Positions 2,266 to 42,222 of a DNA stretch of 42,222 nucleotides are shown in pieces. The position numbers and the translations under genes are program-made. The notes below the pieces were generated by a model. It was given only the letters and a program-made list of their open reading frames with translations, searched no databases and was not told the DNA's origin. Position 1 is the first letter of the stretch, and each line of letters opens with the position of its first letter. This stretch comes from a virus, in the IMG/VR virus record IMGVR_UViG_3300032086_003969, positions 1-42,222 of that record, one strand, 5' to 3'.

Positions 2266-2579
2266 AGCGGATGCCTCCAATCCTTAGTGTTAATATTTCT
2301 ATCATCGATAAACCAGTCATAAAATGGCTTATCTAATTTAAGTTCATGTCTTTTTACGCCCCACTCATCTAGTTGGGCTTCTGTTAGTTCTCTATGATCA
2401 ATACCTGTGGTCGCCCCTCGGGCAGTCCAGTAAACAACCGTATGACCAGCATCATAAAGAGCATTTGCTTTTCTAATGTTATTTAAGATGGGTCTTGCCA
2501 ATGAATAATCTCTAGGCTTATCTTTGTCACCCTCTGGGTGAGTGCAAATAGTTTCATCGATGTCGATGTAAATAATCAC
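2262..2579 (-). CDS. HAD-superfamily small phosphatase
   Basis: A compact 105-residue haloacid dehalogenase-like protein. Motif I is IYIDIDETIC (nucleophile Asp followed by DET), motif II is VVYWTARG and motif III/IV is WFIDDRNI near the C-terminus. This cap-less layout matches small phosphatases found in capsule or LPS clusters, often annotated as capsular-biosynthesis phosphatases. It overlaps the FkbM gene by ATGA and precedes the small gene at 2265, forming the distal end of the sugar cassette. A sugar-phosphate substrate is inferred from context. Confidence 0.8.
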   Translation of the reverse strand: MIIYIDIDETICTHPEGDKDKPRDYSLARPILNNIRKANALYDAGHTVVYWTARGATTGIDHRELTEAQLDEWGVKRHELKLDKPFYDWFIDDRNINTKDWRHPL

Positions 2580-3220: not shown

Positions 3221-3222
3221 TT

Positions 3223-8695: not shown

Positions 8696-9771
8696 CTGTT
8701 CTTCCTTGGCAAGTGGTCAACAGTTAGATGTTCGCCCTTGTCAATCGATTGCATAACAGATTTGCCTAAAACTTCATGAACCAAGTTTGGGCTAAGTGAG
8801 CCTGGAGGCGCTGGTCTTTGAAACTCTAAATCTTCCTCGGAGATAATCCCCCTGTAATTGATGTGCTTATTGACTCGGATACATCTCCTTTGAAGTACGA
8901 TTGTTTCTTTCTCATTTTCTTGTACTTCTTTCTTTTCTGACCCAAGAGACTGCTCTAGCAGTCTTGTTTGGTCCACCATTTCCCTCCAGGCTTTAGGGTC
9001 CATAGAGAACGGGTGATCTGGTCCGCTTCTGGTTGTGTCATCCGTGAAGTGTTTTTCGATAGCCCGAGCGCCCAAGGCAACGGCTCCAAGAACTGTCACA
9101 TGTCCTGGCGTGTGATCACTCAAACCTAAAACAACATTTGGGAAATACTTTTTATACGTCTTTAGGACATTCAAATTAATGTATTTAAAGTTCTCAATGT
9201 CACCAGTGTAATTGGTGTTACATTGCATCAAGCAGACGCCCGGTAGGTTGTGGTAGTCTAGGATCTCCATAGCCCGAAAGACCTCGTTCATAGTCGCTGC
9301 CCCGGTAGCAATGAATACAGGTTTAGCCTTGCGGGATACTTTTTCTATCATAGCCTCCCAAGCAACATCTCCTGAGCCAATCTTAAAAGCTGGTACGTGT
9401 GGATCTAGTTTATCGACCATATCCAGATCATATGGAGTTGTAAAAAACGTAATACCCAGTTCGTTACAATATTCTTTTAGAACATCCGTCCACTGCAAGG
9501 GAACTTCTGCATCTTTGTAAACTTCGTAAATTGTTTTATCCCATTTGGTCTGGTGGCTCATCTTCGATCCAAGGTTCTTGAATCCGTAATCACTAACGTA
9601 TTTTGAACAGTCGTGGTGTTGAAATTTTACAGCGTCAGCACCAGCTTCGTGAGCTAGCTTAATAAGACTAAGTGCCCTGTCTAGATCCCCGTCATGATTA
9701 GCAGCAATATCTGCAATAAAATAAGTTGGGCTATCGGGTCCAATCCTTTTACCATCTACAGAAAAATACAT
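8689..9771 (-). CDS. NeuB/PseI-like nonulosonic acid synthase with C-terminal SAF domain
   Basis: A 360-residue protein. Residues about 14-265 form the NeuB TIM barrel (YFIADIAANHDGDLDRALSL, DAVKFQHHDC, ITFFTTPYDL, FKIGSGDV, GLSDHTPGH, ARAIEKHFT), condensing phosphoenolpyruvate with an N-acyl hexosamine. The last ~60 residues (RRCIRVNKHINYRGIISEED) form a SAF/antifreeze-like domain, as in full-length sialate and pseudaminate synthases. I chose the ATG at 9771 because AAGGAG lies 7 bases upstream and it falls just after the RmlD-like gene's stop. The product could be sialic, legionaminic or pseudaminic acid. Confidence 0.88.
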   Translation of the reverse strand: MYFSVDGKRIGPDSPTYFIADIAANHDGDLDRALSLIKLAHEAGADAVKFQHHDCSKYVSDYGFKNLGSKMSHQTKWDKTIYEVYKDAEVPLQWTDVLKEYCNELGITFFTTPYDLDMVDKLDPHVPAFKIGSGDVAWEAMIEKVSRKAKPVFIATGAATMNEVFRAMEILDYHNLPGVCLMQCNTNYTGDIENFKYINLNVLKTYKKYFPNVVLGLSDHTPGHVTVLGAVALGARAIEKHFTDDTTRSGPDHPFSMDPKAWREMVDQTRLLEQSLGSEKKEVQENEKETIVLQRRCIRVNKHINYRGIISEEDLEFQRPAPPGSLSPNLVHEVLGKSVMQSIDKGEHLTVDHLPRKNRC

Positions 9772-9772
9772 A

Positions 9773-10615
9773 CTAGTTCTCCTTATATTCGTCGAATAGT
9801 TTATCCAAACCACTGTTTAGACAGAAGGAGTAGCCAAGCTCTTTCTTTGCAAAATCAGTTTGCAAGCAAGTGTATCTTGGTCTCTTTATGCCTTGGTTAG
9901 AATCACTATAGGTTTTAGGTTTAATCATCTCCGTATCCATATTAAACCGATCGTACAACATTTTTAAGAAATGGTATTTACTGAGGCAGGTGTCGCCTGC
10001 AAAATTAACCACACCTGTAACGCTGTGGTTGATCATTTCTCTAATAGCTATAGCCAAATCACCGACATACACAGGATTAAAACTAACATTAACAAACCCA
10101 TCTATCTCTTTGTTGTCTTTGTTTGATTGTAGTGCCCAGTCAGCTAACATTCCAGGCTTACTACCAAAAATGTTAGTGCGGACAACCAAACAGTTTTTGT
10201 TATTGTTTTTTGCAACCGCCTCCCCCAGAAGCTTTGTTCTTGCGTAAGTGTTCAAGGGGTTTGTGTTTGAATCCTCGCTATAAGGAATACAAGACATTCC
10301 ATCAAATATTGAGTCAGTTGAAACATAAATCATACGATCACAAGACTGTGCTAATATTTTTGTCAGATCAGCATGTAATGTTTTGGCACCTTGAGGATCT
10401 TCTTCGCATTTCTTCAGCGATGTCATAGCAGCTAAATGAATAACAACATCAGGATTTTGCTCCGCCACAAACTCCTTTGCAAGCTCAAGATCTGCTAAGT
10501 TTCTAACCGAGCTTGGTCCAGATTCTACTGTTTCGTAAAAAAGGTTAAACTTGTTTAAATCTTTTACAACAGCGGTGCCCAACATTCCTGAAGTGCCTGT
10601 AACTAAAACTTTCAT
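9773..10615 (-). CDS. RmlD-like SDR, NAD(P)-dependent nucleotide-sugar reductase
   Basis: A 280-residue extended short-chain dehydrogenase. It opens KVLVTGTSGMLGTAVVKDL (Rossmann GxSGxLG loop), has VIHLAAMTSLKKCEEDP and MIYVSTDSIFDGM, and the catalytic YARTKLLGE (YxxxK). The DSIFDG and NTYARTKLLGE pattern is that of dTDP-4-dehydrorhamnose reductases. It shares one base with the preceding gene (TAATG). It would reduce a 4-keto sugar nucleotide; whether this makes deoxyhexose or feeds the nonulosonate route cannot be decided here. Confidence 0.82.
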   Translation of the reverse strand: MKVLVTGTSGMLGTAVVKDLNKFNLFYETVESGPSSVRNLADLELAKEFVAEQNPDVVIHLAAMTSLKKCEEDPQGAKTLHADLTKILAQSCDRMIYVSTDSIFDGMSCIPYSEDSNTNPLNTYARTKLLGEAVAKNNNKNCLVVRTNIFGSKPGMLADWALQSNKDNKEIDGFVNVSFNPVYVGDLAIAIREMINHSVTGVVNFAGDTCLSKYHFLKMLYDRFNMDTEMIKPKTYSDSNQGIKRPRYTCLQTDFAKKELGYSFCLNSGLDKLFDEYKEN

Positions 10616-11586
10616 TACTTATCTTTTAGTCCTTCCTTGATTAACTCTGCTAGTTCTAACTTATCTTCGCTAAGGTGTAAGGAAGAGTTGAAGTGTGGTC
10701 CTTGATACTTGTTACTATAAGTGTGAGACTTTCTGGTGTACTGAGGAATCACAACTAACAGCTTGTCGCTAGCTGCATAGGTAAAGTCTAATTCTGTCAT
10801 CGCCAACATATCCTCATGGATCTTTTCGCCGGGTCTCATATTAATAATATCGTATTCAATATTTTGTGCTTCACACAAAACCTCCAATGAGTTTAGAACT
10901 GTTTGTAGGTTGTATGATTTGATCTTTGGAATAAATACTTCTCCGCCCTGCGCCAAATCAAGGGCACCCAATACCGTATCCACAGCATCGCTTAAAGTAA
11001 ACAAAAATCGTGAACAGTTTAAATCTGTTACTGGCACAACTTTGTTAGAGTTTATTAGGTCCATCCATAGAGGAATGAACGACCCTCGACTGGCAATTAC
11101 GTTTCCATATCTTACGCTTGAGAAAATCGTATTGTCTGAATAATAATCAAAGTTTGTAAAGACTCTCTCAGCAATAAACTTGCTAGACCCATATACATTA
11201 ACTGGTAAGCACGCTTTGTCAGTCGATATAAGAATGCACTTCTTTACATCCGTTTTTAATGCTGCTGTAGCGACGTTCTGAGAGCCAATGACATTTGTTT
11301 TCACACACTCGTCGGGGTGAAACTCCATGTCGTCTACTCTTTTTAGAGCGGCGGCGTGAATAACGTAATCGGGCTTGTGGATGCGAAACGTAGTAGAAAG
11401 TTTATCAAGATCTCTTACATCTCCTACAACTCTAATTATGTCCTTGTCTTGCCCAAAGTATAGTGCTTGTTTACCCTCATCCCGACTGTATACGATGACT
11501 TGCCAGCCAAGAGATTTTATCCTTCTTATAAGAGCCCTACCCAGGGAGCCTGTGCCGCCTGTGATAAGAACTTTTTTTGCACTCAT
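10615..11586 (-). CDS. PseB/CapD-like nucleotide-sugar 4,6-dehydratase
   Basis: A 323-residue extended SDR. The order KVLITGGTGSLGRALIRRI, DYVIHAAALKRVDDMEFHP, ILISTDKACLPVNVYGSSK, VRYGNVIASRGSFIPLW and RPGEKIHEDML matches the UDP-GlcNAc 4,6-dehydratases PseB/FlaA1/CapD, including the STDKA active-site loop and YxxxK. In pseudaminic-acid synthesis this is the first step. Its stop overlaps the start of the RmlD-like gene by one base, and its own ATG follows the stop of the next gene directly. No PseC-like aminotransferase is in the window, so the next step must come from elsewhere. Confidence 0.85.
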   Translation of the reverse strand: MSAKKVLITGGTGSLGRALIRRIKSLGWQVIVYSRDEGKQALYFGQDKDIIRVVGDVRDLDKLSTTFRIHKPDYVIHAAALKRVDDMEFHPDECVKTNVIGSQNVATAALKTDVKKCILISTDKACLPVNVYGSSKFIAERVFTNFDYYSDNTIFSSVRYGNVIASRGSFIPLWMDLINSNKVVPVTDLNCSRFLFTLSDAVDTVLGALDLAQGGEVFIPKIKSYNLQTVLNSLEVLCEAQNIEYDIINMRPGEKIHEDMLAMTELDFTYAASDKLLVVIPQYTRKSHTYSNKYQGPHFNSSLHLSEDKLELAELIKEGLKDK

Positions 11587-12552
11587 TTATCCCTCTACCT
11601 CGTTCCTCACATATTCCTTGACACCATTATACACATTATATTCGCTGTTTTCAGATAGAATATTAGTTTCGGTCTCAAAGGTCGAGGTAAGGTAGTCCCA
11701 AAAAACCACGGCAGCTTCTTCATATTTTACAGTGTTGTAATATTCGGGCAAGCTCTTTGTTTTTTCAAATCCATGTTTGTCTTCTTTTTTCTGCCGATGC
11801 CCATCAAACCCAATAACATCCACCCTCTCAGCGCCCAGGCAGTTTGCTAGAACCACGGCTCTAGAAGCAAACCCCAGTCTCGAAAAATATCTAGTTAAAT
11901 ATAAGAAAGTGTTTGTATCGTTTGTCTTGGTAAACTCATCGATAACTTGAATTGTTAGCTTATGTGAGTGCTCAAAACCAATAAGAGTTTCGTCTCTTTT
12001 AATTCTTTGAACTAGGTCTGGGTCATTAAGATCTGTACCCTGACCGATCAAAGCAATATCAACCTTTACATCTTTTAGTTTTTCGCTCTTAAAATAAGAG
12101 TTACAACTGATAACAACGTCGTAATCCTTTACCTTCTCCAGATCCAAATCGTCTAAAGTAGGACCACCGCCAAGGACTAAAACATTTGCATTTTTAACCT
12201 TAGCTAAAACATCGTTCTCAGTGTAAACGATTTCCTCGTCGACTTTGATGTCACCGTAATCTAAAGTCCTGTTACCAAAGTAATTGTTAAAAAAAGTATT
12301 GGCAAAGTGGTCTTGCCAAACTGTTCTTGTGTGATTAAAGTTGTACCAGCCACCAGACCATGGGCTTGATGCCCATTGTGGATCAAACCGAATGGTGTGA
12401 CCAAAAAACTCACCTGTCTCATTGTTTTGCCAAATACTTGTGTGATCAGTGTGAGTACTCTTGTAGTGAAAGAGTTTATTAAGATCGTCGATTGATGAAA
12501 CGTTTTCCTCTTGGTCAACATCTCTGTAAACACAGTTATACTTTTCCCACAT
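11587..12552 (-). CDS. MptE/DUF115-like (Maf-type) protein, second copy
   Basis: A 321-residue paralogue of the protein at 5779-6810. The shared core reads ANVLVLGGGPTLDDLDLEKV, VVISCNSYFKSEKLKDVKVD and RVDVIGFDGHRQKKEDKHGF. The N-terminal ~110 residues, rich in aromatic residues (WSGGWYNFNHTRTVWQDHF), appear distinct from the first copy. The glycine loop and the C-N-x-Y-F-x-S segment suggest nucleotide or CMP-sugar binding as in Maf-type transferases. Genes abut on both sides with no gap. Role in transfer of the cassette's acid sugar is inferred. Confidence 0.68.
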   Translation of the reverse strand: MWEKYNCVYRDVDQEENVSSIDDLNKLFHYKSTHTDHTSIWQNNETGEFFGHTIRFDPQWASSPWSGGWYNFNHTRTVWQDHFANTFFNNYFGNRTLDYGDIKVDEEIVYTENDVLAKVKNANVLVLGGGPTLDDLDLEKVKDYDVVISCNSYFKSEKLKDVKVDIALIGQGTDLNDPDLVQRIKRDETLIGFEHSHKLTIQVIDEFTKTNDTNTFLYLTRYFSRLGFASRAVVLANCLGAERVDVIGFDGHRQKKEDKHGFEKTKSLPEYYNTVKYEEAAVVFWDYLTSTFETETNILSENSEYNVYNGVKEYVRNEVEG

Positions 12553-13386
12553 TTAACAACCTCTCAATTTCTTTCTGATTGGAAGTTCACCCTCAGTTAC
12601 CCTCTTTCTTCCATCACCATACGCTGACTCTAATTCACGAACCCCTCGGACTAGTTTAATCAAGCCTTGCGGCTCAACAGAAGCCAAATGGTCAGAGCCC
12701 CACATAGTTCTATCTAACGTAATGTGTCGCTCAAGAATACTAGCACCTAAGTAAACTGCTGCCACAGTGGTTCCAAGTCTAAACTCATGACCGCTATATC
12801 CAACCTCACATTGATACTTTTCTTTTAGCACTGGGATACAAGACAAGTTCAAATCTTCCAAGGGTGCTGGATATGTCGAGTTGCAGTGTAATAAAGAGAA
12901 TGGAGTATTTGTTTCATTCATCCATTGAACTGCTTGATCGATTTCTTCTAAGGTGCTCATCCCAGTTGAAAAAATAATCTTCTTGCCTGTTGCAGCCGAA
13001 GCTTTCATAAGCTCTTCGTTTGTGATCATAGCCGAGGGGATTTTGATGAAGGGAATATCGTACCCCATCAAAAAGTTCAAGCTATCCAAATCCCAAGGGG
13101 AGGCAGACCAGGCGATATTTTTATCTCGACAATATTGGTCGATAATATCATATTCTCTTTTTTCAAACTCTACCTTGTATTTGTAATCTAGATAAGTCAT
13201 CTCACCCCAAGGCGTATCCCGCATCACAGATTTTTGATGTTCAGGGACGCAAACATCCGGGTTTCTTTTTTGAAACTTTACTGCATCGCATCCTGCTACT
13301 GCTGCTACGTCAATAAGTTTTTTTGCTGTTTCTAGACTACCGTTGTGGTTGATGCCGATCTCGGCGATAATATATGTTGGCTTCAT
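12553..13386 (-). CDS. NeuB-like nonulosonic acid synthase lacking the SAF domain
   Basis: A 277-residue NeuB barrel: TYIIAEIGINHNGSLETAKK, DAVKFQKRNP, IAWSASPWDLDSL, FIKIPSAMITNEEL, LLHCNSTYPAP, EVGYSGHEFRLG and ILERHITLDRTMWGSDHLAS. The catalytic barrel is complete, but the protein stops at PIRKKLRGC where family members usually continue into a SAF domain. In dimeric NeuB the SAF domain caps the partner's active site, so this copy may be altered or may borrow the domain from the longer synthase at 8689. It abuts the MptE-like gene downstream. Confidence 0.87.
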   Translation of the reverse strand: MKPTYIIAEIGINHNGSLETAKKLIDVAAVAGCDAVKFQKRNPDVCVPEHQKSVMRDTPWGEMTYLDYKYKVEFEKREYDIIDQYCRDKNIAWSASPWDLDSLNFLMGYDIPFIKIPSAMITNEELMKASAATGKKIIFSTGMSTLEEIDQAVQWMNETNTPFSLLHCNSTYPAPLEDLNLSCIPVLKEKYQCEVGYSGHEFRLGTTVAAVYLGASILERHITLDRTMWGSDHLASVEPQGLIKLVRGVRELESAYGDGRKRVTEGELPIRKKLRGC

Positions 13387-13395
13387 ACTTTCCTC

Positions 13396-15474
13396 TTATG
13401 CTAAGATTTTTCTAGGGATGTCACTGTGTACATGAGATCCTTCACTACCAATATACAGGTTAACTCCTTTTTCTTTAAGCCATTTATATGCGTCTCTACT
13501 AGCCTCAATATTTTTTACAATCTCATCCTTCTTCATTGGGTCTGGCTTCCTAAGAACCTTGTCGCTGTCCTCATAGAAATGATGTGATGTTGTGGTGCCA
13601 GGATTTTCCATATCCCACCCGATCGTATAAATATTTTGAACACCTAAGTGTAGAGCAGTATGCAAGACAGTTTCATACATCATGCCTGGTCCCCAGGGTC
13701 TGTAGATTGTCTTATCCAAAGTATAGTCCTCAAAGTTTCTAGAGTTACACAATGCGTTCATATAATTCTTGTCGTCTGGGATAAAGAAGAAGATGTCAAA
13801 CTCTTGTTTCACAGTCCACAGACCACGAGATGTTGCAGAAATATTTTCTGCCGATGAACCAATCACCAGAGGTCTACTCTTTGTATATTCATAGGCTTGC
13901 ACATTGTTAGAATTAAACATATGAATGTCAACTACCTCTGGAATATAGTTGTACGCTTGCTTCAAAGCAATAACTAATTTGTCTTTTAGCTTTTCCCTTA
14001 GAAACTCTGGGGTGTAATTTTTTAAAGACGGACCACACCCTAGAATATAACAGTCCTCACCAGCAAATTGTCCGGTTAGCTTATTTACCTTATTGGTAAT
14101 AATATCCTTAGTCGCAACTTCAGCAGGAGCCACAGACGATAGATCCCACTTCAACGACGCAATCTTTTCCTTAAACACAGACTCGGATTTGTTGGGGAAC
14201 ATGTCTTGAGACACTGGTTTTAGATCTTTACACTCTTCTTGCAAGATACTATAAAACTCTTGTCCAACCTTTTCTTCAGTAAAACCACAACTATTGAGCC
14301 AGTCTTGTGCTTCTTGTCCGAATTGAGGTAGTTCACCCTTTTTCCATAGGTTGTATGCTTTTCTAAGTTGAAGCCTAGCACTGTTAACAGAGGGCTCAAA
14401 CCAGTCTAGATCAGAATGAAGTTCTGGTGATGAGTGACATGGTTCCCAAAAACCATCAACATAAAATGTACTCTCATCATTTGTAAAGTCAAGATACGCA
14501 CTCGCTTTAGGCACCATTACTGGTTTCTTTTTGTCGATAGCCTCGGCAACAGTTAATCCGAACCCTTCTCCTCTAGTCATAAGCGCAAAAAGATCAGATT
14601 GTTCATACAACCACGAAATATTTTCGCTTGGCAGAAGATCGCAGATCAACGCTATCTTTGCTTTTGATTCTTTTGTTTCTGGTAAAAATACTTTGTTTTT
14701 AATTTGAGAAATTTGGGAGCCAATGTGCTGCGCTTGCTTCTCAAGAGGAATCTGTTCTAAGAAATCATGCATTACGTTCAAGTAAGTCTTGATAACTAAT
14801 ACGGTATCCTCTTGTTTCCCAAACTCCATATTATAAGCTTCTACCAACTTGTCGAAACCTTTTCTTGGAATCCACTGTGACATCGAGAATACTACAAATT
14901 TATCCTTCAATACATTTTCTATATTTTTAATAGGAACAGATTTAGTATTCTTAAAATCAACTACGTGTGGCAATTTGTATGTCTTAATTTTTGACGCCTC
15001 TTCCAGCGAAAACTTGTTAAAGCTACAGGGCATAATTACTGCATCTGTTTCAAGCAAGTCATACATTTTCAACCACGACTCTGGTGGTTGCTTTGTTTCC
15101 CAAACAGTTAGGTTAATATTCTTTGATGCGCCTTTAACAACCTTGGTAAAAGTTTTCCAGCGATGGTCCGCTGGGTATAAACCTGACAAGGTATACATCG
15201 GAGCCGGAAGATGCCAGATTGCAATGTATGGCTCAGAACAATATTTCTCTATCTCAAGTTCTGATTCAAACTCATACTTTGAGATGATGGCTTCCTCGTT
15301 ATGTGCTAGCCTTTTTACAGACGTGTTCTCTGCATTAATATTGTAAACTTTTAAATCAAAACTGTCCGGGTTATTTTGGAGATAATTTTCCATCGCTCTC
15401 AAATAACCTCTGGCAGCAACGGCATAACCACAAGCATCCCTAAATTGAGAGATGTATACGACCCTAGGTTTCAT
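13396..15474 (-). CDS. Fusion: GT4-type glycosyltransferase + C-terminal MptE/DUF115-like domain
   Basis: A 692-residue two-domain protein. Residues about 1-430 form a GT-B glycosyltransferase: VVYISQFRDACGYAVAARGY, FSMSQWIPRKGFDKLVEAYN and the EX7E site ALMTRGEGFGLTVAEA. Residues about 465-692 carry CYILGCGPSLKNYTPEFL, VDIHMFNSNN and IYTIGWDMENPG, the glycine loop and acidic core of the two MptE-like proteins nearby. The ATG at 15474 forms TGATG with the upstream stop. The fusion suggests that sugar transfer and the MptE-like activity act together. Confidence 0.8.
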   Translation of the reverse strand: MKPRVVYISQFRDACGYAVAARGYLRAMENYLQNNPDSFDLKVYNINAENTSVKRLAHNEEAIISKYEFESELEIEKYCSEPYIAIWHLPAPMYTLSGLYPADHRWKTFTKVVKGASKNINLTVWETKQPPESWLKMYDLLETDAVIMPCSFNKFSLEEASKIKTYKLPHVVDFKNTKSVPIKNIENVLKDKFVVFSMSQWIPRKGFDKLVEAYNMEFGKQEDTVLVIKTYLNVMHDFLEQIPLEKQAQHIGSQISQIKNKVFLPETKESKAKIALICDLLPSENISWLYEQSDLFALMTRGEGFGLTVAEAIDKKKPVMVPKASAYLDFTNDESTFYVDGFWEPCHSSPELHSDLDWFEPSVNSARLQLRKAYNLWKKGELPQFGQEAQDWLNSCGFTEEKVGQEFYSILQEECKDLKPVSQDMFPNKSESVFKEKIASLKWDLSSVAPAEVATKDIITNKVNKLTGQFAGEDCYILGCGPSLKNYTPEFLREKLKDKLVIALKQAYNYIPEVVDIHMFNSNNVQAYEYTKSRPLVIGSSAENISATSRGLWTVKQEFDIFFFIPDDKNYMNALCNSRNFEDYTLDKTIYRPWGPGMMYETVLHTALHLGVQNIYTIGWDMENPGTTTSHHFYEDSDKVLRKPDPMKKDEIVKNIEASRDAYKWLKEKGVNLYIGSEGSHVHSDIPRKILA

Positions 15475-16745
15475 CAAAGCACCATAACCTTATCGGTATC
15501 TATAGTGTCCTGGGTTTGCTCACCTGTTGTTGAGATTTTCTCTACAGCAGAAACCATGTCGGAATACTTGTCTTCCATTTTAAAAGCGTTCTTAATATGA
15601 GATTGTAATTGTTTCGCTGCTTTTTCTTTGACGGGGTAAGCCTCGTAAACACTTCGCATTGCTTTTTGAAACTTATCTTTTTTAGGGAAACACCAGTTTG
15701 AATCCGAACTAATAACCCCATCCCAATGAGCCTCCTTGGGTACTGGTTTGATATCAAACGCAACCTTCTCGAACAAAGGCTTGATGGTGGTCTTTTTACT
15801 CTTTGCATTTACGACTGGTGCATACAAAAAATCAACGTGACCTGACCAGGCAGGTGCAACGACTGGGAGACCTGAATAGGCTGCCTCAAAGATTGGTAAA
15901 CCAAAACCCTCACCGTGAGTTGCGGTTACATATGCTTTAACCTTTGGGTCAGTATAAAGTGCGTGAACTTCGTCATCGGACATATTGCCATGAACCAAAT
16001 GGACTTTGCACTTTCTATTATCACCAAAAGGCTTTAAAACAGATTCAATCGAGTTTCTAAGTTTTACTCTGTCAATGCCGGAGTTGTTAGCAATGTTTGC
16101 TTTCACAACGAACCCAACTTCGTCATTATGAAACTCTTCTGCAAACCACTTGATCATTGGGGCTAGGTTTTTTCTTGGACCCATTTGTGCCACTGTCAAG
16201 AAATTAAAGTCGTGCTTTAGCTTTAAGTCAATGTTTGCAGGACTAACATTTTTTACACCATAGTGAACAACTTCTACAGGCACTTCACAGGCTAGCTTCT
16301 GGACAGATTGCCCAGATTCATCCTGAAGTGTGTAAGCACTTCCGACAAACCCTGATTTAGCATGGTTCGAGGTCACGATCACGCCATCCATCTCATTTGC
16401 TTTTTGTAGCCAAATCGGTGCAACACGATCTGTCTCAATACCAGCACAAACACCAATATTAACCTTACCTACTCGTTTCCATTCGTTAGGAATGGTCACT
16501 TGCATACAAATGTCATATTTGAGTTCTGGTTGATTTTGTTGCATTACTGCAAACTTCTGGATGAGGGAATCGATATACTTTCTATAATCTGTATCTTCAA
16601 AGATCCAGTTAGTGTGTCCCCAGTTTAGCGGTTCAACGTATACATCATATTCTGGGTTTGTGGTTAGAGCATTCAATACAAACCTAGCGTGCTCACCGTA
16701 ACCACTGCGAGTTAGTACTGGTGCTCTTAATAAAATCTTTTTCAT
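15474..16745 (-). CDS. GT4-type glycosyltransferase
   Basis: A 423-residue GT-B fold enzyme. The start KKILLRAPVLTRSGYGEHAR gives the N-terminal glycine loop (SGYGEHAR), VAQMGPRKNLAPMIKWF the linker to the nucleotide-sugar domain, and ATHGEGFGLPIFEAAYSGLP the EX7E catalytic/donor-binding site. I chose the ATG at 16745 because it forms ATGA with the upstream stop and GGGAGAG precedes it. It is the second of three consecutive GT4-like genes, presumably extending one glycan. Donor and acceptor sugars are not predictable. Confidence 0.85.
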   Translation of the reverse strand: MKKILLRAPVLTRSGYGEHARFVLNALTTNPEYDVYVEPLNWGHTNWIFEDTDYRKYIDSLIQKFAVMQQNQPELKYDICMQVTIPNEWKRVGKVNIGVCAGIETDRVAPIWLQKANEMDGVIVTSNHAKSGFVGSAYTLQDESGQSVQKLACEVPVEVVHYGVKNVSPANIDLKLKHDFNFLTVAQMGPRKNLAPMIKWFAEEFHNDEVGFVVKANIANNSGIDRVKLRNSIESVLKPFGDNRKCKVHLVHGNMSDDEVHALYTDPKVKAYVTATHGEGFGLPIFEAAYSGLPVVAPAWSGHVDFLYAPVVNAKSKKTTIKPLFEKVAFDIKPVPKEAHWDGVISSDSNWCFPKKDKFQKAMRSVYEAYPVKEKAAKQLQSHIKNAFKMEDKYSDMVSAVEKISTTGEQTQDTIDTDKVMVL

Positions 16746-18013
16746 AGTTCGATACTCTCCCAAGAGTTATACCCTTTTCTGTTTTCCCAAGATCCACATT
16801 CATTGTGAATCTCAGTCATAACATCAACCCAGGTTTTCTTAAAGTTGTCAAAGTTATAATTTTTCATAACGTGTTCACGACCTTTTTTACCAAGCTTTGC
16901 CCGGTCTTTTGGGTCCATCTCATACATTTCTACTAAAGCATTTACAAAATCGTCTTCATTGATTCGGTCTTCGTAGATATACGGAACAGACAAGGAACCA
17001 ATAACAGCTTTAGAGCTAGGCTCGATCCCGATACCAAACCAATCTTTTCCATCTGTAACTTGCTCTTGCAGCCCACCTGTCATGTTAACAATAATAGGAG
17101 TTTCGCAAGACAAAGACTCAAGAGTAGCTAAACCAAAGCCTTCTGCGTCTGCAATGTTCAGTGTGCAATCTGCCATATTGTAAAATGCAGCAAGGTCCGC
17201 TGGGCTTACTTTCTTTTCGTTAAATTGAACTTGCCCTTGTTTCAGTCCAAGTTGGTCACACAAGAATTGCAATGGCTGCCCGTGGTGATCATTGATATCA
17301 GTGTGCATCAACAGCGTAGCATTTTCGTGCCCAACTCTGTCTAGAAAATTCTTCCACCAAAACAGCAGAGTTCCACTTTGCTTTCTTCTAGCATTGCGGT
17401 TGTTCCAGAAACAAACAAATTTATCCTTCATCCCGTTCTGTTCTTTGATGTTGTTAATATTGGTAAGAAGATTTGCATCTTTAAACTTAGTAAATACTTC
17501 AGAGTCAACAGCGTGTGGAATGTATTTTTCTCTCACGTTTGGCGCAACACCTTGTACAATCTTACTTGTCACCTTTGAAATACTAGCGATATAATCATTC
17601 GATTCATAGAATGGCTTATTAAACTTTGGCAGCGGGAAGTTGTCCCAAACATGGTAATAGATCATCGGGACAAGGGGACGAATCTCGTCCTCCATCTTCC
17701 AGAGCCACTCATAAAAACGAGGATCTGTCATAAAGTACAAAATGTCAGGTCTCTCCTGACGAATTACAGACCTAACAATTTCAGCGTCCCCATAATCCTT
17801 TACTGGTAAGATCCTCCACTTCTCCTTGTACTCTTCGGTTCTTTGTTCACGATAATCAGCGTGCTGGATTGCCCCAGCCAAACTAACCACCTCAAAGTCA
17901 CCGCTATCCAACAGAGCCCTAATAACGTATTGTGTCTGGGTCCCCACTCCAGATGGTAACAGTGGATGGTCGCTAATTGTTAGGACCTTAATTCTCTTCT
18001 TCTCTTCTGTCAA
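16742..18013 (-). CDS. GT4-type glycosyltransferase, first gene of the sugar cassette
   Basis: A 423-residue GT-B glycosyltransferase: KVLTISDHPLLPSGVGTQTQ (N-terminal loop SGVGTQ), FVCFWNNRNARRKQSGTLLF at the second domain's start, and the EX7E site IADAEGFGLATLESLSCETP. The C-terminal helix (KKGREHVMKNYNFDN) is typical of the family. It is the most upstream gene of the long run of glycan genes and is separated from the nuclease gene by only 12 bases, so no dedicated promoter for the cassette is apparent. Confidence 0.85.
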   Translation of the reverse strand: MTEEKKRIKVLTISDHPLLPSGVGTQTQYVIRALLDSGDFEVVSLAGAIQHADYREQRTEEYKEKWRILPVKDYGDAEIVRSVIRQERPDILYFMTDPRFYEWLWKMEDEIRPLVPMIYYHVWDNFPLPKFNKPFYESNDYIASISKVTSKIVQGVAPNVREKYIPHAVDSEVFTKFKDANLLTNINNIKEQNGMKDKFVCFWNNRNARRKQSGTLLFWWKNFLDRVGHENATLLMHTDINDHHGQPLQFLCDQLGLKQGQVQFNEKKVSPADLAAFYNMADCTLNIADAEGFGLATLESLSCETPIIVNMTGGLQEQVTDGKDWFGIGIEPSSKAVIGSLSVPYIYEDRINEDDFVNALVEMYEMDPKDRAKLGKKGREHVMKNYNFDNFKKTWVDVMTEIHNECGSWENRKGYNSWESIEL

Positions 18014-20916: not shown

Positions 20917-21238
20917 TGGTGGAGGTAGGGAGAATCGAACTCCCGTCTTGCCCAGTTCCATAGAGAGGTCGTTCACAAGGTTAGGTCTGTTTTTTTCGTC
21001 AGACAGCCCACTTGACTAGATAGTTTTGTTGTGGTCAAAACAATCAAAAACACAAAAGGGACAAATACGGCTTTCTGTTTATTGGCTGCCGTCGCCTCAA
21101 ACATCGTCAGGTTATTAAGCTGCGAGTGCTAGTTGAAAATCGTCGTTTGCGATTATTAGATAAGCGTTTTTAGTGAGCCACGCTTCCCTCACCCTTGCAC
21201 CTTCTCTACTTTCCTATCAATCGATACCGTTTACCCCC
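20917..21238 (-). ncRNA. ssrA: tmRNA (transfer-messenger RNA), one-piece; tag ANDDFQLALAA
   Basis: This 322-base RNA has both conserved ends of tmRNA. The 5' GGGGGTAAACGGTATCGA pairs over 7 bases with the 3' TACCTCC, leaving ACCA. The 3' T-arm reads GGGAGTTCGATTCTCCC. The acceptor stem has a G-U at the third pair, the main alanine identity element, and an encoded CCA. The tag reading frame (21150 down to 21115) starts at GCA after TAATAATC and gives ANDDFQLALAA then TAA, ending in the ALAA degradation signal. tmRNA rescues stalled ribosomes and marks the product for proteolysis. A host-derived SmpB would be needed; no smpB is seen here. Confidence 0.95.
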
Positions 21239-21354: not shown

Positions 21355-22185
21355 TTATAGCCCTAAAGCATCTAAGGCTTCTTCACCACCTTCATCACCT
21401 TCTTCTGCTGGCTCTTCTTCTGCTGCTTCATCGCCACCTTCGGCTTCAGCAGCCTCTTCGCCTTCTTCACCCTCTTCTGCTTTTGCTTCTTCATATTCTG
21501 GGGTGGTGGTCTGAGGTAAGGTCTCCTGTAATTCGTCTTCAAACTTATCGAAGTATAACATTAGATTCGTTAACAGGTAATCATAGAATTGTTTCTTATC
21601 TTCATCATTACCTAACATGGTATAGGCATCAACAATTTGCTTTTCAATCCGATCAAAGTCACTGGAGGCAAAGTTTCTTCCTGTTTCGTCTTCGCCCTCT
21701 AAACCAAATTCTTCGCCCTCTCCGGCTTCACCGCCCTCGATGTCAATGAATTCACCTTCGACTTCTTCCTCTTCTTCATCCCCGATATTAATCGCAATCT
21801 TTTCTAGAAGAACACGATCGTAAAAGTATTCCTGGCTCTCTTTCTTCGCTGCATCTTCTTGGGCATCTACTGGCGCAATAGTACGTTTAACTGCGTTAAC
21901 AATATGGGCTCGATAAGAGTCTCTCTGTTCTTTGTCTGTAGTTAAGTTTTTGTAACCATCCTCCAGGGTTGGTACAATCTTCTTTAACAAGTCAGCTAGA
22001 ACATTAATTCCAGTAGACTCAGCAGGAACTTCGTCTGTAGCCTCAGCTTCAACTAGAAGCTTACGGATTGCTTTGCGAAGCTGTTGCTCCTCATTTAATC
22101 TTTGTTGATTCTTGGTGACCAGTCTCTTACGGATGTATTCACGCAAAAGCTGCTCTTGTAGAAATTGATCTCTGTTAATACTCAT
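21355..22185 (-). CDS. Acidic, low-complexity protein with capsid-leader-like N-terminus
   Basis: A 276-residue protein in three parts. The N-terminal ~50 residues form two basic amphipathic helices (QLLREYIRKRL, QLRKAIRKLLVEAEA). A middle domain of about 170 residues (YKNLTTDKEQRDSYRAHIVN, YDRVLLEKIAINIGDEEEEE) is helical, and the C-terminal ~60 residues are an Ala/Glu/Gly tail. The LVEA after the second basic helix looks like a T4 prohead-protease site (L-x-E before A or G). It ends 116 bases before the tmRNA, with no gene between. It is probably a virion or scaffold-associated protein; this is inference. Confidence 0.7.
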   Translation of the reverse strand: MSINRDQFLQEQLLREYIRKRLVTKNQQRLNEEQQLRKAIRKLLVEAEATDEVPAESTGINVLADLLKKIVPTLEDGYKNLTTDKEQRDSYRAHIVNAVKRTIAPVDAQEDAAKKESQEYFYDRVLLEKIAINIGDEEEEEVEGEFIDIEGGEAGEGEEFGLEGEDETGRNFASSDFDRIEKQIVDAYTMLGNDEDKKQFYDYLLTNLMLYFDKFEDELQETLPQTTTPEYEEAKAEEGEEGEEAAEAEGGDEAAEEEPAEEGDEGGEEALDALGL

Positions 22186-22193
22186 ATCTTTAA

Positions 22194-24245
22194 TTATCTC
22201 CGCCTTTGCCTTTTAGCTCTTTTAACTTTTGGTTTTTTTGTTCGACGATAGGGGTTAAATTTATTGGGCGGTCCAAAACCACCAGCGTAACCAGCTACGG
22301 CACCACCTGCCATTGAACTAATTTCATCTATCATGTCGTCCAAAGGTCTATTAATGTTATCATTTATGGTGGTAACAATTTCATAGGCTTGATCTTTTTC
22401 CTCAGCGGATAGTTTTCTAGGTAAGTTCTTCTTGAACTCTTTTTCACCTTCTTCGCCTTGGACAAGGTATTGTCTCATTTGTGTTCCGCTTACACCACCC
22501 GCAAACAAAGGAGTAATCACAGGCTCCACTTTTACCCCTGGGTTATTTCTCTCGGCATAAGATTGTGCTCTGTCAAATCGTGCATCGTCTGCATCCTTTT
22601 CACTCTTGCCTAAAAGAGCGGTATCGCCCTCTTTAAATACAGCATTATCAGCGATTAACTCATACACATCTCCAACTGGTGAAGGGGTTGTGCCTGCCAT
22701 TATTTTAACATTTGGCATATCTTTGGTATAAAGCTCCCACAACTTAACTGACATATCAACAGTCACAGGAGGTCTTTCTTTTGTAGATACAATAACATAA
22801 ACTTCATCGACGTCTTTTTTGTCTGCAAAATACTTAGCCAGTTGAAAATGACCCGCATGAGGAGGTTTGAATCCGCCGGGTATTAGGGCAACTCTTTTTC
22901 CTTCTTTCTCAGTTAATACCTCGGGTGTGCTAACTTCTTCAATAAGTAAATCTAAATCTTTGTTAGAAAGGATTGCTTCATTTGTAATATCCCTTTGTCC
23001 AGCAGCCTCTCTTTGTTTACCGTAAGTAAGGATTCCTAAGATTTGGTTTATTGGGGCAAACTGACCAGTAAATTTGTAAGTCCTACCGTTGTAATCAAAT
23101 ACAACTCCTTCAATACTTGAGGTGATGCGATCAACTTCTTTGATTTTATTTAACTCTCTTCTCATTTTATCCATGTCTTGTGCGGATAAAACCCCATCGG
23201 TCGCTAGTCTTGTAATCTCTGTGGTTGTGTTTTTTACAGTTTGTTGTAGTCTTCTTACCTCGTCCTGTGGATTTGCCACAAAAAGACTCTGCACTGCTTT
23301 TAACATTTCAACAGCAAAATCGTGAATAATCATTTCCAGAGGTTCAATCGCTTTTTTCAACAACATAGCTGTAGCGACTCTATCTGTGACTGCTTTTATT
23401 TCATCCAAAACATCTTTGGATACACCTTGTTTAATAGCTCTTAAATCTGCGGCACCCTCTAATTTTAGAGCACGAGCAGTGATATCATCTTTGATCTTAT
23501 CTGGTACAGGCAAGGTTTCAATAGGTTGAGAGTTTCTAATTCTTGTTTTAAGGTAATCAAGCACTGTTGAATTAGAATCTAACCCCTCTTGTGAAATAAC
23601 AGCGTCAATCTTTCTTTTAGTCTCCTCTAGAAACTGTCCTGATTCCAGCCCTTGGAGTTCAATAACTGCCGACCTGACAAAGTTAAAATCATCCTTTGAC
23701 AACCTGTTTTGCATACTCTTAAGGTTGTCATCTAAAACGCTCAAACTGTCAGAAACATCTGCTGGTTCAGGTCTTCCAGTCTCAGGGTTTTTTACTTTAT
23801 GACCAGAGTCATGAATCTTAAGATTCTTGGCATCGTACTGAATAACGTTTGGACTTGATGGACTCATTACCTCAGAGTTATACCAAATGTTTGCAGCCTC
23901 ACCAAAGATCTGTTTTTTCTGCGAGGATGAAAGTACCTCAACAGCTTTTTCAAAAGTTTTAAATGCTCCAGTGAAAGCCTCTGTTAATCCGCCACGACCG
24001 GCAAACTTATTAGCTAGGGCTGCGGCGTCCATACCGCCTTTTTTAATGTTGCCAATATTTCTAGCGGCAACTGCTCTGGGCGGAGTTGCGGACAAGTCGT
24101 AAGATAAGAAAATATTTTGCCCGTCTACCTTTTCTTCATATGAAAGATTCCCCTCACTAGCTGCGGAGAGGATTTCTTTCATACCGGTAAAAGTTAGATC
24201 ACGATCATCATAAAGGTGGTCCATGTGACCAGCGACACCACCCAT
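22194..24245 (-). CDS. Ligase-like nucleotidyltransferase fused to HxGH adenylyltransferase domain
   Basis: A 683-residue protein. The N-terminus has YEEKVDGQN (residues 37-45), a KxDG lysine-adenylation motif as in RNA/DNA ligases, and around 379-400 EGVVFDYNGRTYKFTGQFAP, matching ligase motifs IV and V. Residues about 450-630 form a nucleotidyltransferase: IPGGFKPPHAGHFQLAKYF (HxGH), VIVSTKERPPVT and GVSGTQMRQYL (the ISGTxxR phosphate loop). The C-terminal tail is very basic (RRTKKPKVKRAKRQRRR). The pair could repair RNA or handle nucleotide cofactors; the substrate is not known. It ends 8 bases before the next gene. Confidence 0.75.
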   Translation of the reverse strand: MGGVAGHMDHLYDDRDLTFTGMKEILSAASEGNLSYEEKVDGQNIFLSYDLSATPPRAVAARNIGNIKKGGMDAAALANKFAGRGGLTEAFTGAFKTFEKAVEVLSSSQKKQIFGEAANIWYNSEVMSPSSPNVIQYDAKNLKIHDSGHKVKNPETGRPEPADVSDSLSVLDDNLKSMQNRLSKDDFNFVRSAVIELQGLESGQFLEETKRKIDAVISQEGLDSNSTVLDYLKTRIRNSQPIETLPVPDKIKDDITARALKLEGAADLRAIKQGVSKDVLDEIKAVTDRVATAMLLKKAIEPLEMIIHDFAVEMLKAVQSLFVANPQDEVRRLQQTVKNTTTEITRLATDGVLSAQDMDKMRRELNKIKEVDRITSSIEGVVFDYNGRTYKFTGQFAPINQILGILTYGKQREAAGQRDITNEAILSNKDLDLLIEEVSTPEVLTEKEGKRVALIPGGFKPPHAGHFQLAKYFADKKDVDEVYVIVSTKERPPVTVDMSVKLWELYTKDMPNVKIMAGTTPSPVGDVYELIADNAVFKEGDTALLGKSEKDADDARFDRAQSYAERNNPGVKVEPVITPLFAGGVSGTQMRQYLVQGEEGEKEFKKNLPRKLSAEEKDQAYEIVTTINDNINRPLDDMIDEISSMAGGAVAGYAGGFGPPNKFNPYRRTKKPKVKRAKRQRRR

Positions 24246-24506
24246 TTACTTCACCTCTTTCTTTTCTTCTTCCAAGACAGTAAGACGCTCTTGAAGCTCT
24301 TGTAATTGCCTGTTAACTCTTCTGTAGTGACCCTTAATATTATACAACTGCTCTTTAGCTAAATCAAGTCTATTCTTTTCTCTTTTTGTTCTCGGACGCC
24401 AATTAGAAATGATCTCATCAAGAGCTTGTACTGAAGCCTTAAAGTCAGGTTTATAGCCCTCGTTGAGCAGAAACTTTTTTGTTAGTTTGTTTAAAATATC
24501 TTTCAT
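24246..24506 (-). CDS. Small coiled-coil protein with capsid-leader-like N-terminus
   Basis: An 86-residue basic protein. It starts MKDILNKLTKKFLLNEGYKP, an amphipathic helix ending in LNEG, which fits the L-x-E/G pattern of T4 prohead protease sites. The rest is a coiled coil (LDLAKEQLYNIKGHYRRVNR, QLQELQERLTVLEEEKKEV). The stop directly abuts the start of the ligase/adenylyltransferase gene (TAAATG). Its small size, leader and coiled coil suggest an internal head or assembly protein; this is inference. Confidence 0.65.
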   Translation of the reverse strand: MKDILNKLTKKFLLNEGYKPDFKASVQALDEIISNWRPRTKREKNRLDLAKEQLYNIKGHYRRVNRQLQELQERLTVLEEEKKEVK

Positions 24507-34738: not shown

Positions 34739-34815
34739 TGGTGATCCAGGCAGGACTCGAACCTGCGACCCACGGTTTAGAAGACCGTTGCTCTATCCAT
34801 CTGAGCTACTGGACC
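34739..34815 (-). tRNA. tRNA-Arg (anticodon TCT)
   Basis: A 77-base cloverleaf with 7-base acceptor stem (GGTCCAG/CTGGATC), D-arm AGCTCAGATGGATAGAGC, anticodon loop CTTCTAA on the stem ACGGT/ACCGT, T-arm GCAGGTTCGAGTCCTGC and encoded CCA. TCT reads AGA/AGG, codons common in this AT-rich genome. Confidence 0.95.
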
Positions 34816-35039: not shown

Positions 35040-35114
35040 TGGTAGTCCGGCTAGGAGTTGAACCCAGATGCGATCGGTTATGAGCCGAGTGCTTTACCTT
35101 TAAGCTACCGGACC
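35040..35114 (-). tRNA. tRNA with CAT anticodon (Met or lysidine-Ile)
   Basis: A 75-base cloverleaf: acceptor stem GGTCCGG/CCGGACT, D-arm AGCTTAAAGGTAAAGC, anticodon loop CTCATAA, T-arm CTGGGTTCAACTCCTAG and encoded CCA. The anticodon stem lacks the three G-C pairs of initiators, so it is elongator Met or an Ile tRNA whose C34 is modified to lysidine. One mismatch (C-T) tops the anticodon stem. Confidence 0.9.
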
Positions 35115-39697: not shown

Positions 39698-40471
39698 TTA
39701 AATGTCTAGCATTAATTCTGCTGTTTCTACTTTCATAAAGGTTTGACCATCGGGACCATCGCCCTCTGGAAACTCAATCATAGAATCTAGCCTGGTTTTA
39801 TCCGTGAATCCCATCCATTTACCCCGATACTCTTTTCTTTCTTTGTAATCGGGTGGCTCAACTCGGCGAAACATTACGCCAACACCTTTTTTTAGCTTAC
39901 CTTGTTCTCTGGTGGTCAATTCTTGCACGACCATTTTTGATACCATCTGTCTTAGGCTTTCTTTGGTAAGATTTTCTTTGAATGGTAGCTCCATTTGGCC
40001 TTCTGGTTCGCCGACCATACCCATTGGTGGTTGCTTGTATGTTCCGCCTCGTTGTAGTTCTTCTCTGAACTCGTCCTTGATATATTGTACTACACCTTTC
40101 ATACTGTCAAGGCTTATTCTTACTGGGTCAAAACTATCGTGGGCGTCGTGGAGCGGGTTGACCTCAACGTCGTAGCGACCCATCGCTCCACGGGGGTCAA
40201 TTCTGACTTCCATATTTCTATCGTTGGTAAAAACAATATTTCCATTGTTTAGAAGTTCTTGAACCTCAAAGTAAAGTCCCATCTCAGCCATAAGAGGCTC
40301 TACAAGTTTCTCCACCATAGACAAGAGTTTAGAGATGGCTTCGTCGTCGCCTCGGTTTTGCACGAAGTTTTTACGGGCTGCTTCAAGTTCAGCAAATTCT
40401 TCCTCACCTTGAGTAACCTCAGTTAAAATATGTTTGATCATTTCGGTGATCGTGGTCTTTAAATTGCTCAC
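39698..40471 (-). CDS. Unknown protein with MKITK-like leader segments
   Basis: A 257-residue protein. It starts MSNLKTTITEMIKHILTEVT, a helix ending in LTE, and contains a second similar segment at about residue 168 (LTKESLRQMVSKMVVQELTT). Between lie mixed helices and strands (FVQNRGDDEAISKLLSMVEK, VRIDPRGAMGRYDVEVNP). The repeated leader style matches the next five small genes. No enzymatic motif is seen. Its start overlaps the stop of the preceding gene by 1 base. Confidence 0.6.
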   Translation of the reverse strand: MSNLKTTITEMIKHILTEVTQGEEEFAELEAARKNFVQNRGDDEAISKLLSMVEKLVEPLMAEMGLYFEVQELLNNGNIVFTNDRNMEVRIDPRGAMGRYDVEVNPLHDAHDSFDPVRISLDSMKGVVQYIKDEFREELQRGGTYKQPPMGMVGEPEGQMELPFKENLTKESLRQMVSKMVVQELTTREQGKLKKGVGVMFRRVEPPDYKERKEYRGKWMGFTDKTRLDSMIEFPEGDGPDGQTFMKVETAELMLDI

Positions 40472-40962
40472 TATGCTTTTTCTCCTTCTTTGGCTTTCTT
40501 GGTCATGGTAGCATAATACACAGATTCGCCCTCTTCACCATATTGATCCTTAAAGCTTTGCATTGCAGGTTTATATTTTTTAGCTAATTTTTCTTTTTGG
40601 GACTTTTCAGACTTGGTTAGTTTTCTTTCGCCAAGCCCTTGACTATAGGCATCCATTTTAAATTGGCTGACCCGATCTTGGAGATCAGTAATAAAATCAG
40701 GGTGCATATGCTTAGACAGTTCTTGCTGCACCGCTGGAGCTAATAGTTTGTTTAAAAGTAGTTCCATATCATCGGCAAGGGTTTTTTGATCATATGAAGA
40801 ATCACCCTCGTTCACCATGGATTCTGCCTTAACACAGTTTCTGTATGTTCTCCCAAACATCTTTTTAGTTTTGCGAGTTGGATGGGTCTTATAGCCCTTT
40901 TGGCAACGCTCATCAAGTTGTTGCTGTACCATCTCACGAATTTGATTAATAGTAATTTTCAA
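40471..40962 (-). CDS. Small basic protein with MKIT leader
   Basis: A 163-residue protein starting MKITINQIREMVQQQLDERC, an amphipathic helix ending in LDE. A short basic region (KTHPTRKTKKMFGRTYRNCV) follows, then helices (DDMELLLNKLLAPAVQQELS) and a Lys-rich tail. Basic body plus helical leader suggests a DNA-associated internal head protein; this is inference. It abuts its neighbours (1-base overlap with 39698 gene; 1-base gap upstream). Confidence 0.6.
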   Translation of the reverse strand: MKITINQIREMVQQQLDERCQKGYKTHPTRKTKKMFGRTYRNCVKAESMVNEGDSSYDQKTLADDMELLLNKLLAPAVQQELSKHMHPDFITDLQDRVSQFKMDAYSQGLGERKLTKSEKSQKEKLAKKYKPAMQSFKDQYGEEGESVYYATMTKKAKEGEKA

Positions 40963-40963
40963 T

Positions 40964-41281
40964 TTACTTCATCATCCTAAATGCCATTTCTGCCATTCGG
41001 TCAACGGGCAGCTTCAAGAACTTCTCCTTGTTCATTTCATTAAGAGCGTCTAGAACAGACACAATAGCAGAGGCAGAAAACAAGTCAACCATTGTGCCTT
41101 CGACTTTGCCTCTTTGTTTGTCTGAAACGATTTGGCGAAGTTGTGCTTCTTTGGGATTATCAAAATCTAACCCTGGAACTGGTTCAAACTCTTTGGTTTG
41201 AAGTCCGTACTCTTCCGAGCCAAACTCTTTGAGGAGTTCTTCTTTGATTATCTTTCGTAGTTCAGATTTTGTGATTTTCAT
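40964..41281 (-). CDS. Small protein with MKITKSELRKIIKEE leader
   Basis: A 105-residue protein starting MKITKSELRKIIKEELLKEF, the clearest copy of the leader, with I-K-E and L-K-E sites before FGSEEYG. The rest has a DNPKEAQLRQIVSDKQRGKV helix and ends RMAEMAFRMMK. It overlaps the upstream gene by 4 bases. No other motif is recognised. Confidence 0.65.
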   Translation of the reverse strand: MKITKSELRKIIKEELLKEFGSEEYGLQTKEFEPVPGLDFDNPKEAQLRQIVSDKQRGKVEGTMVDLFSASAIVSVLDALNEMNKEKFLKLPVDRMAEMAFRMMK

Positions 41282-41619
41282 ACGTCTTTGACTCCGTAGT
41301 ATTTCGCTGGTCCACGTCCAGGATTCTCTGCTTTGCGCCCCATTCTCTTAGCAAAAAGATCAGTTCGCTTCTCAATGAAGTCTGGCTGGATTATGACTTG
41401 GGGTCCAAGATCTTTGTATCTTTCGTCGGCGGCTGGGCGGAGTAGATTAAGAACAACAATTTGCTTGCCGTCTTCTGAGCCCATTGCTACTATCTCTCCA
41501 ACTGCTCCAACCATAACACCACCGATGACATCTACTTCATCGCCGACCTGGGCGTCGCCCATCATGGCTTCCATCTCTTCTTTGATGATTTGTTGGAGTT
41601 GGGACTTGGTGATTTTCAT
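41278..41619 (-). CDS. Small protein with MKITKSQLQQIIKEE leader
   Basis: A 113-residue protein, leader MKITKSQLQQIIKEEMEAMM ending at I-K-E. The body (AQVGDEVDVIGGVMVGAVGE, QIVVLNLLRPAADE, VIIQPDFIEKRTDLF) is beta-rich and may be a small barrel. It overlaps the downstream gene by 4 bases (ATGA) and lies one base from the upstream gene. Confidence 0.65.
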   Translation of the reverse strand: MKITKSQLQQIIKEEMEAMMGDAQVGDEVDVIGGVMVGAVGEIVAMGSEDGKQIVVLNLLRPAADERYKDLGPQVIIQPDFIEKRTDLFAKRMGRKAENPGRGPAKYYGVKDV

Positions 41620-41620
41620 T

Positions 41621-41896
41621 TTATCCCTCTACTCTGGCTTTGAGAAGTTTATAAAGTTGATTAGCAGCCTCGCCGATTTCTACCTCTTCTGTATTCATAA
41701 GGAAAGGCAAAAAATCATCTTCAAGTTTGTAAAGCATAGTTTGGAGTTTTTCCTTATTGGCTCTGTCAAGGTACTCGGATTCCCGTCCCATTCTTTTCAG
41801 ATACATCTCTCTGTCTGCTCTGGCTGCGCCAGACTCGTACACTTCTTGTATGGTTTCTCTGATGACTTCTTGTAGATGGGTTTTGGTGATTTTCAT
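41621..41896 (-). CDS. Small helical protein with MKITKTHLQEVIRE leader
   Basis: A 91-residue protein, leader MKITKTHLQEVIRETIQEVY with I-R-E and I-Q-E sites. The body is helical and acidic (KLEDDFLPFLMNTEEVEIGE, ANQLYKLLKARVEG). It starts exactly where the upstream gene's stop ends. Confidence 0.65.
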   Translation of the reverse strand: MKITKTHLQEVIRETIQEVYESGAARADREMYLKRMGRESEYLDRANKEKLQTMLYKLEDDFLPFLMNTEEVEIGEAANQLYKLLKARVEG

Positions 41897-42205
41897 TTAG
41901 ATGTCGTAGTCCTTCATCATATCAAGTTCTGCCTTGGTTGGTGCTCGGCGACCTTTACCCATCTTGAGTGGCTTGCTGGGCGGGTCACGGTAATCACTTT
42001 CGTAATCTTCCATATCTGCCGATGGTCCGCTGCCGACTGGTCCGTCATAGGATGGTCCTTTCACGCCTTTTTCCAAAATAGCATAGAGGTCCGAAGCATA
42101 GGCTCTGGCTGCTGCCGAAATCTTTGCTCCGATCTTGGTTGTACCAATTTCTTTGTATAGCAGTTCAGCCATCTTCAACGCTTTTCTTGCGTCTTTATCA
42201 CTCAT
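41897..42205 (-). CDS. Small protein, unknown, first full gene of the MKITK run
   Basis: A 102-residue protein: KALKMAELLYKEIGTTKIGA is helical, then a Gly/Pro/Ser-rich linker (KGPSYDGPVGSGPSADME) and a basic end (KMGKGRRAPTKAELDMMKDY). It lacks the MKIT leader. The ATG at 42205 forms TGATG with a stop read from the right edge. Function unknown. Confidence 0.6.
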   Translation of the reverse strand: MSDKDARKALKMAELLYKEIGTTKIGAKISAAARAYASDLYAILEKGVKGPSYDGPVGSGPSADMEDYESDYRDPPSKPLKMGKGRRAPTKAELDMMKDYDI

Positions 42206-42222
42206 CAAAGAGCGGCTTGTTC
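42205..42222 (-). CDS. C-terminal end of an upstream gene (edge fragment)
   Basis: The last 18 bases of the window, read on the minus strand, give five codons (E-Q-A-A-L) and TGA overlapping the next start. This is likely the end of another gene outside the window. Confidence 0.4.
   Translation of the reverse strand, partial: EQAAL

Follow-up and report, generated by a model that had tools for sequence, protein, structure and literature searches.

Why should four adjoining genes of a phage begin with the same short peptide and then continue into unrelated proteins? The question is raised by the window analysed here, the complete 42,222-base virus record IMGVR_UViG_3300032086_003969, which is a piece of a larger phage genome, that of an uncultured, probably marine T4-like phage. 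Nearly all of its genes lie on the minus strand, and four of them, adjoining at 40471-41896, have in common an MKITK leader on unrelated bodies, which confirms the differing bodies and shared start given in a preliminary description of this DNA. Among long contigs, the window's nearest relative is G001 (190 kb), which has 15 leader matches and a Peptidase_S77 match (E=1e-31); most genes common to the two show 41-88% protein identity, and several are in the same order. The leader genes of the window and their parts are as follows.

41621-41896, minus strand: leader gene, N-terminus MKITKTHLQEVIRETIQE
41834..41896, minus strand: leader of gene 41621, MKITKTHLQEVIRETIQEVYE, then S
41621..41833, minus strand: body of gene 41621, predicted to be the mature protein; G001 has a gene 88% identical to it
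41278-41619, minus strand: leader gene, N-terminus MKITKSQLQQIIKEE
41557..41619, minus strand: leader of gene 41278, MKITKSQLQQIIKEEMEAMMG; its sole L-x-E is IKE14
41278..41556, minus strand: body of gene 41278; found in L225 and L226 behind the leader and linker of 40964
40964-41281, minus strand: leader gene, N-terminus MKITKSELRKIIKEELLKE
41225..41281, minus strand: leader of gene 40964, MKITKSELRKIIKEELLKE, then F
40964..41224, minus strand: body of gene 40964; 67% identical to the C-terminal end of a different G001 leader protein
40471-40962, minus strand: leader gene with a TTG start, N-terminus MKITINQIREMVQQQLDE
40909..40962, minus strand: leader of gene 40471, MKITINQIREMVQQQLDE, then R; MKITKAQLREMVKQQLEE in relatives
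40471..40908, minus strand: body of gene 40471; holds a CQKGYKTHxTRKTKKMFGRTYRNCVKAE module
39698-40471, minus strand: neighbour gene with a GTG start, N-terminus MSNLKTTITEMIKHILTE, a diverged leader
40418..40471, minus strand: diverged N-terminal leader of gene 39698, MSNLKTTITEMIKHILTE, then VTQGE; the G001 homologue has MKLTASDLRQIIQE, then VTQGE
39914..39979, minus strand: diverged internal leader copy of gene 39698, KENLTKESLRQMVSKMVVQELT; aligns with intact internal leaders of L229 and G001
41897..42220, minus strand: gene cut by the window end; G001 has the same body behind MKITKSQLQQIIKEEM
24459..24506, minus strand: possible distant leader of gene 24246-24506, MKDILNKLTKKFLLNE, then G; below profile detection
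22048..22185, minus strand: possible long or doubled leader of gene 21355-22185, ends RKAIRKLLVE, then A; below profile detection

The looser leader that had been noticed twice in gene 39698 is borne out by relatives, in which intact MRITKSQLQQII and MKITKSQLQQVI leaders align with residues ~165-186 of this protein. The design that had also been attributed to genes 24246 and 21355 is indeed alike, with LLNE followed by G in the former and LLVE followed by A in the latter; because the leader profile detects neither, both are treated here as possible members only. Besides gene 41621, protein identity to G001 is 75% over 53 aa for gene 40471 and 51% for gene 21355. The DNA pattern of the leader start has three matches in the window, while the mean for dinucleotide shuffles is 0.04 and three is not attained in any of them. 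The bodies of the window's leader genes gave no usable match to Pfam or PHROG, and identities suggested by these searches were dropped since every match was weak. An AlphaFold2 model of gene 41278 has a mean pLDDT of 46 and predicts, at low confidence, a helical leader.

The remainder of the window holds several other features. A phage-encoded tmRNA (20917-21238, tag ANDDFQLALAA) lies beside PhoH, and genes for tRNA-Arg and tRNA-Met are found at 34739-34815 and 35040-35114. The product of 22194-24245 (683 aa) shows a KxDG ligase-like motif close to its N-terminus and, in addition, an FKPPHAGH nucleotidyltransferase motif. Judged from sequence alone, 2576-18013 is a sugar-modification-like gene block with two NeuB-like synthases, NAD-dependent epimerases, a PIG-L-like deacetylase, a formyltransferase-like protein and glycosyltransferases.

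The leader is far from confined to this locus. When IMG/VR was searched with a degenerate pattern of the leader's DNA, at least 120 matches were obtained, and the fetched loci hold at least 259 distinct leader proteins that form at least 220 body clusters by a k-mer criterion. The shared start that had been noticed in a few genes is therefore real and of far larger extent, recurring on hundreds of other phage proteins. Among the IMG/VR leader proteins, information content stays high up to residue 16 and reaches background by residue 23; conservation stops about residue 22, giving a leader of ~22 residues. A scan for this N-terminal profile, which had been proposed for the whole genome, found 3-16 matches per contig among 27 window-related or leader-bearing virus records, with a mean of 8.5 matches on contigs that have a recognised gp21. 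The same DNA pattern, applied to 257 Gb of genomes of bacteria and archaea, matches two contigs only. A phage-type dCMP deaminase is encoded on one of them and two leader genes lie side by side on the other, so that both look like mis-binned phage DNA. Among T4-like phages already described, the leader profile (A1, at E=10) has no match in T4, KVP40, Syn9, S-PM2, P-SSM2, HTVC008M or phiM9. A tblastn search of cultured phages with the bare leader, a query that is possibly too short or was filtered, likewise gave no match, and the leader was not found in the literature searched, which mostly lay outside subscription journals.

What follows the leader is highly diverse. When 120 leader proteins were scanned for domains, most had no match, and single members matched pentapeptide repeats, leucine-rich repeats, DnaJ, GNAT acetyltransferase and FliG_C, domains that are unrelated to each other. 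Leaders and bodies are also exchanged. In both L225 and L226, the body known from window gene 41278 comes after the leader and linker that belong to gene 40964 in the window. The CQKGYKTHxTRKTKKMFG... module of gene 40471 follows MKITK leaders as well as leaders of a second type (MKLLIENWQNYLNEA), and it also occurs in kinase-like proteins. Kinase-like proteins that start MKV(K/R)IIKE, then GSF or similar, and carry CQKGYKTH...TRKTKKMFG were seen in L258, L259, L263, L267, L269, L271, L273 and L276. In some cases, several units are fused in one reading frame. One ORF of L229 begins with a leader-like stretch, has two further leaders inside, and combines the body of 39698, a second body and the body of 41897; window gene 39698 retains its diverged internal leader where this ORF has one. 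ORFs with two or three leader-like copies are found in L229 (2509-3693), L051 (484-1608), L058 (at 1633) and L240 (at 3948), and a multi-leader ORF of L112 (at 4071, reverse-strand coordinate) has one copy at its C-terminus. These ORFs would be like self-contained tagged polyproteins, and such leader-body fusions would be understandable were their parts set free by a protease.

Adjoining genes with starts that are similar in DNA could also be the product of ordinary paralogy, i.e., a duplicated family with fast-diverged bodies in which the start was kept for translation or by chance. The bodies are of different folds, however, and different domain families behind one leader contradict this explanation, as does the recombination of leader and body; internal leader copies, moreover, cannot serve the start of translation. 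The synonymous codons of the leader vary, which indicates that selection acts on the peptide and speaks against an explanation at the level of the mRNA, which is therefore rejected. Simple paralogy is thus hardly credible.

The end of the leader is where a processing site would be sought. The motif [LIVM]-x-E is present at residues 18-23 in 152 of 209 body clusters (73%), compared with 9-23 of 209 in later windows of equal width; sites at residues 21-22 are independent and the commonest, while a site at 18 is not independent because the search pattern partly fixed position 16. Across the 209 clusters, the site residue is enriched 8.8-fold for E and depleted to 0.5-fold for D, and G, A or S follows the site in 61 of 162 cases as opposed to 19 of 123 further along (p = 2e-5). 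The proposal that the leaders end in L-x-E therefore holds, although the commonest conserved L-x-E lies at residues 18-22 and not at IKE14; gene 41278, whose leader has no L-x-E beyond residue 14, has only the latter. Glu is common in amphipathic helices, and helix composition may contribute part of the L-x-E signal. Protease gp21 of T4 cuts off leaders of 10-19 residues after Glu, and Asp at P1 of the T4 leader blocks processing and leaves targeting unaffected (PMC9026906), a finding that matches the preference for E over D at the leader end observed here. An E-specific site at the end of the leader, often with trailing G/A/S, is as expected for a T4 gp21-type protease.

The same arrangement is seen in a second class of leader, MKLI(M/L)ENW(R/N/K)x(F/Y)LxE, which was gathered by the same approach, is unrelated to MKITK and is present on at least 94 body clusters (viral contigs L281-L392). 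Here E14 occurs in 84%, conservation ends at that residue, and [LIVM]xE is present at 13-16 in 87 of 94 clusters. Behind these leaders are found, among others, M23 peptidase, NT5C, GNAT, C5 methylase, protein kinase, AAA_33 and HAD. S77 is present on 13 of the 16 long contigs that carry leaders of this class. A third leader-like start, FDLKKFLVENKLTxNSxLLKE(G/N), was seen in Flavobacterium phage vB_FspM_immuto (L185; 15763-16311 and 29588-30888) and in L181 (6501-6728).

A K- and E-rich leader that is predicted to be helical, if in a low-confidence model, might instead be a docking helix for a target outside the head, such as host RNA polymerase, the membrane, the tail or a degradation adaptor, with L-x-E reflecting helix composition. 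Such a helix would not account for the preference for E over D in a fixed register after a hydrophobic residue and before G/A/S, for conservation that ends at the site in two unrelated leader classes, or for the internal copies in fused ORFs, and the co-occurrence with S77 and adjacency to gp21 described below also speak against it. It is very unlikely that the leader serves such a purpose.

The 42-kb window, a fragment that ends short of the head operon, contains no prohead protease. A gp21-like enzyme, which had been named as the protein to look for, is found in relatives, as Peptidase_S77 is present in 22 of 31 long leader-bearing contigs, including G001. Eight of the nine S77-negative contigs also lack the T4-type portal, which suggests that they are fragments or come from phages in which this head module is absent; the ninth has a piece of a portal at its end. 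On G006, a 147-kb contig of L056 and L089 with 14 leaders, S77, S78, a T4-type portal and Gp23 were sought and none was detected.

In T4, genes 67 and 68 come immediately before gp21. Some leader genes hold this place, directly upstream of gp21 and between the portal (20) and protease (21) genes, in 5 of 20 genomes (L187, L194, L195, L198 and L204). Most leader genes are far from the head operon, and the excess beside gp21 is modest (p ~0.002 by gene and 0.026 by genome, the genomes being related). In many head operons, the gene between protease and scaffold starts MKKSELKxxIK...EVLxEEG, and such a gene begins with MKKSELKxxIKECVKEVIFEEG, a peptide related to the leader; in G001-like phages, this gene is a weak match to the leader profile and ranks top after the true leaders. 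No enrichment of a T4-type late promoter motif was found upstream of leader genes. Most head operons of L186-L205 have, near the scaffold (~+900 to +2000 from the protease), a small basic gene that is similar to ribosomal protein S21; it is also seen at 6062-6289 in L182 and is annotated RpsU in Microcystis phage Mel-JY01.

The leader genes at the gp67/gp68 position in several genomes, along with the small size of many bodies, raise the alternative that the tagged proteins are mainly prohead-core scaffold of the gp67/gp68 kind, which the leader would keep in the core and which is degraded and lost at maturation, so that little or nothing is delivered. Contigs with 3-16 leader genes on unrelated bodies, mostly far from the head operon, do not fit this alternative well, and enzyme-like or interaction-domain bodies (DnaJ, GNAT, leucine-rich and pentapeptide repeats here; C5 methylase, M23 peptidase and kinase in the ENW class) are unexpected for a mere scaffold. 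A purely scaffolding role is thus considered unlikely.

Taken together, a leader shared by unrelated bodies and ending in a protease site is most likely an address tag for loading the head, and we consider it probable, with good confidence, that the MKITK leader acts as a prohead-targeting propeptide at the N-terminus, packaging and cleavage being what we infer from sequence features. The capsid-targeting role that had been suggested for this locus gains support from the E-specific site at the leader end, the co-occurring S77 and the leader genes that occupy the gp67/gp68 position. During head assembly, the helical first ~16 residues would bind the scaffolding core, and any protein bearing the tag would co-assemble into the prohead. 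A gp21-type protease would then cut at L/I-x-E at the leader end, usually at residues 18-22 and sometimes at 14, and the freed body would stay in the head, from which it would probably be ejected along with the DNA to serve in anti-defence or take-over; alternatively, the body itself may be a core component that is degraded. The chances appear evenly balanced that, in an uncultured, mostly marine T4-like lineage, two or more interchangeable tags, all with the prohead-protease site at their end, form a general system that loads a dozen or more exchangeable proteins into the head of each phage, some of them made as polyproteins, which are ejected as an anti-defence or take-over set. Phage proteins that are packed in the head and injected are hard to find and mostly unknown, and a tag that can be read from sequence would allow virion-packaged, possibly injected proteins to be listed straight from metagenomes. 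The hundreds of unknown bodies found here, several with enzyme or interaction domains, are of interest in this respect, and the leaders themselves are new candidates for head-loading tags.

Several known systems resemble the one described here. In giant phages, gp53 and gp54 of SPN3US as well as proteins of phiKZ have conserved N-terminal propeptides on head-internal proteins that are cut after a Glu motif (PMC5694885, PMC10052503). The N-terminal location, the Glu-motif site and the head-internal carriers are alike, whereas the giant-phage propeptides are mostly >100 aa, have few carriers and, in SPN3US, are cut after A-x-E. The closest cultured relative found is vB_FspM_immuto, in which several genes start MKKSQLR(Q/E)IIKExL-like and the prohead protease is 52% identical to that of G001; it has fewer MKITK-type genes, and a different leader type (FDLKKFLVENKLT...) is prominent. 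The literature search found no virion proteome of immuto or of any leader-bearing phage. Some leader genes share with T4 gp67 and gp68 their place between portal and protease, but most lie outside the head operon and their bodies are unrelated. The nearest parallel is the CTS of T4 IPI-IPIII (Tequatrovirus), an N-terminal propeptide of 10-19 aa that targets the core and is removed by gp21 after Glu, the internal proteins being injected to counter host restriction (PMC9026906, PMC12373910, PMC3012670). Outside the leader, its carriers have no common sequence, and the host restriction enzymes that they inhibit differ (PMC12373910, PMC3012670). Both systems place a short N-terminal propeptide on otherwise unrelated small proteins, and three features of a T4-type propeptide are found here: a shared N-terminus on unrelated bodies, an [LI]-x-E end motif, known from sequence only, and a gp21-family protease on leader-bearing contigs. 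The MKITK leader is nonetheless longer, at about 22 aa, and has no detectable match to the CTS, so that by sequence it falls outside the T4 leader family. Three Ip proteins are known in T4 and at least 10 are reported across its relatives, compared with 3-16 matches on the leader-bearing contigs here, and the present system also differs in having copies fused in tandem and one or more additional leader classes. By analogy, the best reading is that the leader would work like the CTS of the T4 internal proteins despite its unrelated sequence, which would carry the idea of T4 internal proteins beyond a few enteric-phage genes and into a large, mostly marine group of uncultured phages.
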